This document shows, in pieces, positions 3,254 through 11,347 of a stretch of DNA of 36,952 bases. Both the position numbers and the translations under genes were made by a program. The DNA is taken from NCBI GenBank assembly GCA_015522685.1, contig WALU01000004.1:1-36952 (forward strand), read 5' to 3'. The stretch is from Thermoproteota archaeon (GTDB lineage Archaea; Korarchaeota; Korarchaeia; Korarchaeales; Korarchaeaceae). Numbering within the stretch: the stretch's first letter is position 1; each line of letters opens with the position of its first letter. The notes under the pieces were generated by a model. That model did not search any database and had not been told where the DNA came from. It was given only the letters and a program-made list of their open reading frames with translations.

Positions 3254-4267
3254 ATGAAGATCGAGATACTTGGAACAGAGACCCTCGGAGTGAGGGGTCT
3301 ATCTACATTTGTAGATGCGGCTAAGGTCCTAATAGATCCTGGGGTGGCCTTGGGGTTCTCTCGATATCACCTCCATCCTCATCCAATTCAAGCAGTTGTT
3401 GGAGATGATGTGAAGGCTAAGATAGTTAAAGCTTGGAAGAGAGCCAAAGATGTAGTTATAAGCCATTTCCATGGGGATCATGTCCCCCTACTCAATCCTA
3501 ATCCCTTCCAGCTGGGAATTGACGATGTTCTTCGATCACATTCCACTAATCCCAATGCTAGGATCTGGGTGAAGGCTGAGAAGTTCTGCAGAGGAGTCGA
3601 GAGGGAGAGGTTGAGGGACCTCAAGAGAATGTTTGGTGGTCAAGTAGTCGAGGTGGAGCCTGGTGAAGGAGATGGCATGTTAGAATTCGTCGGTCCCTTT
3701 TTCCATACCGGAAGCTCAAGCACCTTAGTTCTAGGTACCCTTATTAGGAGTGAGGAGATAGTGCTGCACCTCTCTGATGCTGATATTTTCAGTAAGGGAG
3801 TAATTAGAGCAATAAGGAGAATAGACCCAGATATTATAATATCGGACGGACCTTCTATCTATAGGCATGAGTTTGATGACAGGTTTATTAACGATGCTCT
3901 CTTAAGGGCCTCAAGGCTAGTAGATTCATGCGGGAGCTGGGTACTAGATCATCACCTCATGAGGTGCGATGAAGGGATTGAATGGCTTAACTCCCTCAAG
4001 AAAAGAGAAAGAGGATGCAGGATCTTTTCTGCCGCTGGTTTCATGATGGAACCTCTCACAATGCTGGAAGCTTGGCGCAGGACTCTCTACAGGTTATTGC
4101 CAGTGTCTAATGAATGGTTCATGAACCATTCTCTCTTGAAGAAATCGAAGAGAGATTATGGAGATATATGGCCTGAAATAAAGAAGGATTTAAGTGAGAA
4201 AAGGCCAGATAACGAAAGAAGATTTGAGAGTGCGCTGAGCTACTCCTTGGAGAGAATAGGAGCCTAG
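3254..4267 (+). CDS. UPF0282-family metallo-beta-lactamase-fold hydrolase
   Basis: 337 residues, near the usual ~300-320 of this archaeal family (COG2248). The start reads MKIEILGTETLGVRGLSTFV, typical of UPF0282. The metal-binding signature H-F-H-G-D-H is at residues 71-76. More conserved features are FFHTGSSS and HLSDADIF (second metal cluster), then SDGPSIYRHEF, DHHLMR and a final AAGFM motif. Family members are predicted metal-dependent hydrolases with no established substrate. The gene stands alone, with about 400 bp of non-coding DNA after it. Confidence 0.85.
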   Translation: MKIEILGTETLGVRGLSTFVDAAKVLIDPGVALGFSRYHLHPHPIQAVVGDDVKAKIVKAWKRAKDVVISHFHGDHVPLLNPNPFQLGIDDVLRSHSTNPNARIWVKAEKFCRGVERERLRDLKRMFGGQVVEVEPGEGDGMLEFVGPFFHTGSSSTLVLGTLIRSEEIVLHLSDADIFSKGVIRAIRRIDPDIIISDGPSIYRHEFDDRFINDALLRASRLVDSCGSWVLDHHLMRCDEGIEWLNSLKKRERGCRIFSAAGFMMEPLTMLEAWRRTLYRLLPVSNEWFMNHSLLKKSKRDYGDIWPEIKKDLSEKRPDNERRFESALSYSLERIGA

Positions 4268-9042: not shown

Positions 9043-9050
9043 CGTTAAAT
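9043..9050 (+). promoter_or_regulatory. Candidate TATA box of the AbiE-type operon
   Basis: GTTAAATG lies about 30-37 nt before the ATG at 9080. Transcription would then start within or just after the palindrome at 9053-9072. Confidence 0.4.
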
Positions 9051-9052
9051 GT

Positions 9053-9072
9053 AGGTAACAGATCTGTTACCT
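9053..9072. promoter_or_regulatory. Perfect 20-bp palindrome, likely autoregulatory operator
   Basis: AGGTAACAGATCTGTTACCT is its own reverse complement over all 20 bases. It lies between the candidate TATA box and the ATG at 9080, so a bound protein would block the promoter. AbiEi antitoxins are known to bind inverted repeats in their own promoters and repress them, so the downstream gene product is the likely ligand (inference). Confidence 0.75.
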
Positions 9073-9079
9073 CGGTTGA

Positions 9080-9676
9080 ATGATGAACTTATACGAGATA
9101 AGAGAGAAGCTCCTCTCATCTGGGAGAGCAGTCTTCGACCTGAGTCAGCTATCCAATTTGCTCGGGATACCTCGCACCCATGCCAAGGTCTATGCGAGCA
9201 GGCTGATCGAAAGGGGGTGGGCTTGGAGGCCCATGAGAGGGATCATCGCTCTCACTAGCGACGAGTTCGTTATCGCTAGCCAGTTGATCGAGCCATCTTA
9301 TATCTCAATGCATGCTGCCCTCTACTTACTTGAGCTGGTAGACCAGATCCCATCCCAAATTGAGTGCGTTACTACCAAGTATAGCACTGTAGTCTCTGGC
9401 ATAAGATATAGGAAGGCGAGGTCGAGTCTATTCTTTGGGTATAAGAGGATGGAGAAAGCAGGAAGCTACGTTTTCACAGCTCTACCAGAGAAGGCTCTTC
9501 TAGACATGGTGTACTTCGACTATACTCCTCCTAAGTGGATCTTTTCCAAAATTAATCCCTCAGTATTGGAGGATATGTCTAGGGAATACTCTAGGCTGAG
9601 GAACTACAGGGCTAGGAGGGTCGTTAAGTGGGTGAAAGAAATTGCTAAACAGAGAGGAAATCTTGAGGTTAGCTAA
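9080..9676 (+). CDS. AbiEi-like antitoxin with winged-helix domain
   Basis: 198 residues. Residues ~1-65 are a winged helix of the type that opens AbiEi/COG5340 proteins (LSQLSNLLGIPRTHAKVYASRLIERGW followed by the wing RGIIAL). Residues ~70-190 form the C-terminal antitoxin region (EPSYISMHAALYL, YRKARSSLFFGYKRM, TALPEKALLDMVYF). The downstream toxin-type gene starts within its last codons, so the two are co-translated. It probably represses its own operon through the palindrome at 9053-9072 and neutralises the partner. Two ATGs are adjacent (9080, 9083). Confidence 0.75.
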   Translation: MMNLYEIREKLLSSGRAVFDLSQLSNLLGIPRTHAKVYASRLIERGWAWRPMRGIIALTSDEFVIASQLIEPSYISMHAALYLLELVDQIPSQIECVTTKYSTVVSGIRYRKARSSLFFGYKRMEKAGSYVFTALPEKALLDMVYFDYTPPKWIFSKINPSVLEDMSREYSRLRNYRARRVVKWVKEIAKQRGNLEVS

Positions 9677-10382
9677 GGCTAGGAGATTGAAGCCTTGGCA
9701 AGAGGAAAAGAGGTACGTACAAGCGCTAGTGCTCTATGCCATGAGTGACTGGCCCATCGTTCTGAAGGGAGGTACCTATCTCTGGTTCTTTCACGGATTG
9801 AACAGATTCTCAGATGATCTTGACTTCTCCCAGGTGGGGGATCTTAAGGAGGATCCTCGAGATGTGAGCTTCTCTCTTGAACTTTTTGGGTTGAGAAATC
9901 ATGTCAAGATATTGAAGGATGATAAGTACACCCTCACCTTCAGATTGGATGCTTGGGGACCCCTTTCTACCTCTGAGAAGGACCTTTGCCGGGTTCGCGT
10001 CGATATAAGTAGGAGAGAAGATGTTCTCCTGAAACCCGTGCCAGTGAAACTCGACGAGCTGCACTATGGGATTCCCATTGTTTTCCTCAGGGGGACTAAT
10101 CTTAAAGAAGTTCTAGCTGAGAAGATAAGGGCGGCCGCTGTGAGAGGTGCCGCAAGAGATCTTTATGATTCATGGTTCCTTCTTAGAAAGGGAATCAACT
10201 TGAACCAGAGCTTACTGGCAAGAAAACTTGAGTTTTACAGGGTAAGGAATCTATCAGAATTATGCGCAAGGTTACGAGCGATCGAGCCCTCTTGGAAATC
10301 GGAACTTGAACCCATAATCTTCGGTCATCTCCCTAAATTCTCAGAGGCTTATAAGGAGCTAGCATCGGCGCTTAACTGTTGA
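9642..10382 (+). CDS. AbiEii-like nucleotidyltransferase toxin
   Basis: 246 residues of the DUF1814/AbiEii family. Key motifs: LKGGTYL (residues 41-47), the catalytic RFSDDLDF (55-62) with metal-binding aspartates 59 and 61, a third acidic strand around VRVDIS, and the lysine/arginine motif AEKIRAAAVRGAARDLYD. The start appears to be TTG at 9642, inside the antitoxin gene (35-nt overlap, different frame). AbiEii proteins transfer nucleotides to RNA targets and stop growth or block phage when released from the antitoxin. The target is unknown here. Confidence 0.8.
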   Translation: MLNREEILRLAKARRLKPWQEEKRYVQALVLYAMSDWPIVLKGGTYLWFFHGLNRFSDDLDFSQVGDLKEDPRDVSFSLELFGLRNHVKILKDDKYTLTFRLDAWGPLSTSEKDLCRVRVDISRREDVLLKPVPVKLDELHYGIPIVFLRGTNLKEVLAEKIRAAAVRGAARDLYDSWFLLRKGINLNQSLLARKLEFYRVRNLSELCARLRAIEPSWKSELEPIIFGHLPKFSEAYKELASALNC

Positions 10383-10600
10383 GATCTGTTGGAGATTTGA
10401 AAGAAGGAAACAACAGCAGAGGACACCATGAGGGCAGCTAGAGGTTTCTATTTCAGTTCCTAACAGTATATAGAGCGTAGATAGACGCTGTCGCTCGAGC
10501 TTCCAGCTACTCAGCGTTCAGTTTACTATATAAGAAAGCTAATGATGTAGAAAATGTCTTTTACCTCGAAGTTGGACGAGGAGATAGCTATTTTTACCCC

Positions 10601-11347
10601 TTAGATGGTAAGGCAGCTTTAGTTGCTGGAACTTCTTCGGGTATTGGACGAGCGGCCACTATAAAGCGCTCTAGAGCAGGAACAAAGGTTGCCCTCTTCG
10701 ATATAGAGGTTGAGGATGAGTTGAAGGGTCAAGATGAGATAGATGATAGAGCCAAGTTTTACAGGCGCAACATGTTTTTTGAGGAGGATGTCAGAAAAAC
10801 CTTAGAAGTTATTCATAGGAACTTTAGTAGTTAGGATAGATATTATCGTCAATGCTGTAGGCATCATGATTAGGAAAGATGCCGGTAGAAAACGAGCGAG
10901 GAAGGGTGGGATGGGATCATAAGCATGAGTTTTAAAGGATCCCTTCTAGTTTCGAAGCACGCCATATCTTACATGAGAAAAAGTGGTGGTGGAAGCATAG
11001 TGAATATATTGGGATGGAGATTGAAGGGAGGACCTAAGGCGGTAGCCTACCACATCTTAGGGAGAGGGCTAGTTAACATGGCTAGGACGATGGTAGTAGA
11101 TTATGGAAGGAAGGGTATCAGAGTTAACTGTGTAGTTTCTAAGGATGTGGATATCCTAATGCTCAGAGAGGAGGCGAGGCAGCTCGGGATTAGTTTCCAA
11201 GAATTCTTGAAGAAGACTGCAGATAGACAGATAGGGAGAAAGGGGGGACCAGAAGATGTAGCTAATGTTATTCTTTTTCTAGCCAATGAGCTTTCCAGCT
11301 GGATAGCTGGCTTTGTTATTGCAGTCGATAGGGGAGGTTTGGCTTAA
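10601..11347 (+). pseudogene. Broken short-chain dehydrogenase/reductase (SDR)
   Basis: The N-terminal part reads LDGKAALVAGTSSGIGRA (NAD-binding TGxxxGIG-type motif) from 10601, then meets TAG near 10831. Coding resumes in another frame (DIIVNAVGIMIRK) and shifts again to EEGWDGIISMSFKGS, which continues to 11347 with the C-terminal ending FVIAVDRGG. At least two frameshifts are present. The catalytic YxxxK is YHILG, and the catalytic serine strand reads VNILGW, so serine and lysine are gone too. It ends 11 nt before gcvPA and may once have been part of that operon. The ~218 bp before it (10383-10600) show nothing recognisable. Confidence 0.8.

Follow-up and report, generated by a model that had tools for sequence, protein, structure and literature searches.

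A perfect 20-bp palindrome, AGGTAACAGATCTGTTACCT, lies at positions 9053–9072 (no strand assigned) of the 36,952-nucleotide stretch of korarchaeal DNA analyzed here (the window). We consider it very probable that this dyad is the operator of an abiE operon and that the antitoxin AbiEi represses its own synthesis through it. The preliminary description had reported the palindrome and suggested that it was a candidate operator; both hold, the coordinates being exactly as described and the dyad being kept before all intact close homologues without being scattered through the genome. The 20-mer is single-copy both in the window and in the whole 1.48-Mb genome, even when up to 3 mismatches are allowed. 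The expected number of perfect palindromes of at least 20 bp is 0.04 for the window and 0.00014 for the 122 bp of intergenic DNA that hold the dyad. The looser pattern TAAC-N6-GTTA is found genome-wide at 22 sites, compared to 29 for the reversed control; this background level indicates that the dyad is not a regulon-wide site. The window contains another perfect 20-bp palindrome, GAATGGTTCATGAACCATTC, at 4112–4131 within a coding ORF (3254–4267); allowing 3 mismatches gave no further copy of it in the window.

The dyad precedes two genes on the plus strand. The upstream ORF (9080–9676, with an ATG at either 9080 or 9083) encodes an AbiEi-type antitoxin with a winged helix-turn-helix (wHTH) and a C-terminal domain, and is followed with a 35-nt overlap by an ORF (9642–10382, TTG start) for an AbiEii nucleotidyltransferase; both the overlap and the TTG start are also seen in relatives. 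The AbiEii assignment is based on matches to Pfam AbiEii (2.8e-23) and PADLOC AbiEii (2.6e-51). For the antitoxin, the ORF matches PADLOC AbiEi (1.9e-22), and the profile of its family matches the AbiEi structure 6Y8Q (4.4e-11), which was also the best Foldseek match (3e-4) for a model in which only the N- and C-terminal ends have good confidence. The window protein itself scored below the cut-off of Pfam AbiEi_4; of 8 members of its family, however, 6 match that profile at E≤0.01 and 3 match AbiEi_1. By sequence, therefore, the pair is of the AbiE type as originally proposed, with an AbiEi protein carrying a wHTH and a C-terminal antitoxin domain and an adjoining AbiEii (DUF1814) protein encoded in the same operon; AbiEii is the putative toxin that AbiEi would neutralize. 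Beyond the operon, at 10600–11347, is an apparently fragmented short-chain dehydrogenase gene, in which an open frame strongly matched by Pfam remains only for the C-terminal part (10925–11347).

The dyad had been placed between a TATA-like element and the antitoxin ATG, and conservation footprinting of the upstream regions confirmed this position. When approximately 100 bp upstream of seven korarchaeal genes were aligned, the only invariant blocks were the heptamer GTTAAAT and the arms of the dyad. GTTAAAT, found at 9044–9050 on the plus strand of the window and unchanged in 7 of 7 korarchaeal relatives, is a candidate TATA/BRE element of the abiE promoter. Its assignment in the window is based on conservation, a motif scorer having favored another AT stretch there; from the spacing typical of archaeal promoters, transcription would start at about 9074. 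Scans for bacterial-type promoters and terminators gave no match near the dyad.

Conservation of the dyad before close homologues was the check suggested at the outset, and the dyad was found at every intact close relative. All 6 of the other intact close AbiEi homologues (58–77% identity) have it as GGTAACAGATCTGTTACC or a near variant. Relatives such as Candidatus Methanodesulfokora put the host in the Korarchaeota. Across 29 genomes of the phylum, the dyad (≤1 mismatch) was present in 6 of 6 with an intact close AbiEi gene versus 2 of 23 others, and one of these two exceptions is a decaying AbiEi remnant; this association is supportive but not independent, because the pattern was written after the first loci had been seen. 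At three AbiEi remnants in relatives (L054, L015, and L009) the dyads are decaying too. The source genome (G000) carries further AbiEi/AbiEii loci on contigs C12, C14, C15, C26, and C31 (L173–L177), some of them broken and one type, that of C26, having the toxin gene ahead of the antitoxin gene; the dyad is absent from these other loci. The dyad is thus an inverted repeat in the operon promoter that is conserved along with the antitoxin.

We also examined AbiEi genes collected from hundreds of archaeal genomes. Within the same AbiEi subfamily, TAAC-N6-GTTA was found in 38 of the 38 upstream regions examined, which come from at least three archaeal phyla. The pair immediately flanking this motif was symmetric in all 38 (A-T in 23, G-C in 14, T-A in 1) with no wobble, as expected for a two-fold DNA site. 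The dyad center lies 14–39 nt before the start codon in all but one of the 38 loci, the exception possibly reflecting a mis-annotated start. Outside the Korarchaeota, a TATA-like box is usually found 20–30 bp before the dyad center, so that the dyad would coincide with the transcription start; in the Korarchaeota, GTTAAAT is found 15 bp before the center, and the dyad would then occupy the interval from box to start.

More distant archaeal AbiEi genes have TATCA-N4-TGATA upstream, and both operator classes fit a single core, TAWCA-N4-TGWTA, of which the window contains the instance TAACA-GATC-TGTTA (9056–9069, no strand assigned). This core occurred in exact form in 31 of 86 archaeal AbiEi upstream regions of a first set; its frequency was 0.3% in shuffles, and none of 376 neighboring windows contained it. 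With the pattern fixed beforehand, a hold-out set from 62 genomes had the exact core in 24 of its 87 upstream regions, all of them new, with rates of 0.17% in shuffles and 0.29% in control windows. The excess over controls is thus approximately a hundredfold, with the related genomes not being fully independent of each other. In the distant class the dyad often lies 50–120 nt upstream of the start codon, and roughly half of the sampled distant AbiEi genes have no core within 1 mismatch. Nor was the core found, within 1 mismatch, at six named plasmid AbiE loci (three haloarchaeal, one from Thermococcus, and two bacterial), indicating that only some members of the family have it. A search of viral contigs found no relative. 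We rejected the idea that the distant operators are inside-out versions of the same half-site, since both classes share TAWCA-N4-TGWTA in the same orientation.

The sequences show a symmetric site that is conserved, linked to AbiEi, and placed at the promoter; from this we infer binding, dimeric occupancy, and repression by AbiEi. Two AbiEi wHTH domains would bind the two half-sites, which are about one helical turn apart, on one face of the DNA. In the source genome the site fills the gap from the TATA-like box to the expected transcription start, and bound AbiEi may thereby block the pre-initiation complex or the loading of polymerase. Plentiful AbiEi would keep expression of the antitoxin–toxin operon low, and a fall in AbiEi would allow it to rise.

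A potential concern is whether a protein other than AbiEi recognizes the dyad. Many archaeal regulators bind short dyads, and the position within the promoter would suit any repressor, so a host transcription factor might control the operon. Such a factor would be expected to have a regulon site, unlike the 20-mer that is unique in the genome and its looser form that is found at background; furthermore, the core accompanies AbiEi from phylum to phylum and decays where AbiEi has been reduced to a remnant. We therefore regard control by a host factor as unlikely. It is very improbable that the dyad is a recombination or integration site left by a mobile element that carried abiE, or a chance palindrome. 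This reading draws on the two perfect 20-bp palindromes of the window, one of them in coding sequence, against the 0.04 expected, and on the solo operator copy found in a relative, but it does not account for the fixed distance to the start codon across the 38 loci or for the conserved TATA-like box beside the dyad.

An action of the dyad in RNA, as a 5′ leader hairpin controlling translation, we find scarcely credible. If transcription began upstream, the arms could pair into a stem of 8 bp closed by a 4-nt loop, but the position of GTTAAAT predicts a start at the 3′ edge of the dyad, which would leave the dyad untranscribed. The pair outside the core is symmetric in 38 of 38 regions with no G-U wobble, dyads of the distant class often lie 50–120 nt before the start codon, and no Rfam match was found.

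An operator of this kind is already known from bacteria. AbiEi of Streptococcus agalactiae (6Y8Q) autorepresses through inverted repeats in the promoter of the abiEi-abiEii operon (PMC3985639), these being two 23-bp repeats with 11-bp perfect arms, 27 bp apart and each bound separately. In Mycobacterium tuberculosis, the AbiEi-like wHTH antitoxin of Rv2827c-Rv2826c represses its own operon via inverted repeats (PMC7319586), here four 23-bp repeats in two pairs that show negative cooperativity. The contrast with spaced repeats that had been drawn from the window thus agrees with the published bacterial operators (PMC3985639, PMC7319586), which consist of two or four separate 23-bp repeats. The archaeal site differs in sequence and is a single compact dyad of 18–20 bp, its half-sites being separated by about one turn; the streptococcal and mycobacterial layout is not seen upstream of the window operon, where the extended 22-nt arms of the one dyad are 77% complementary. 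On ICESsuHN105 of Streptococcus suis, AbiEi binds palindromic repeats in the promoter as well as related sites elsewhere (oriT) (PMC11062541). That system differs from the archaeal one in having two repeats and a bacterial promoter; the solo core copy in a relative (locus L059, described below) is a candidate parallel to the oriT-type sites. AbiE is common in archaea and enriched in DPANN (PMC12988326). We found no description of an archaeal AbiE operator, nor of this compact version with its cross-phylum core, in the literature searched, which lay mostly outside subscription journals. An operator defined by sequence across phyla makes archaeal autoregulation directly testable, and its core marks true abiE promoters in uncultured genomes.

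Such an operator also offers a natural series of protein–DNA pairs with which to study DNA recognition by AbiEi. The residue with the highest mutual information with operator class was residue 33 in numbering from the second Met (H34 of the 198-aa ORF), which sits in the recognition helix of the wHTH (helix 32–44 of the model). Tyr is found at this position in 38 of 41 TATCA-class proteins versus 2 of 43 TAACA-class proteins, where the residue is mostly Val, Ile, or His. Operator class changes only about four times on the tree, so that phylogeny alone could yield the association, and independent pairs cannot reach significance; the residue–base link is accordingly a prediction from sequence. 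We tentatively suggest, as a possibility well short of an even chance, that a large branch of archaeal AbiEi proteins reads the one symmetric core TAWCA-N4-TGWTA, that one helix residue sets the third base (Tyr for TATCA; Val, Ile, or His for TAACA), and that stray exact sites such as that in L059 are targets in trans. If true, the residue–base pairing would provide type IV antitoxins with a simple code for recognition.

No AbiE remnant was found by tblastn at the solo sites L059, L060, L061, and L063. At L059 (1501–1518; G022:C81:24730–24747), an exact copy of the abiE operator core of the relative G022, GGTAACAATTCTGTTACC, is intergenic and could be either a target in trans or a relic. The site lies upstream of a small gene with a weak match to DUF2150.
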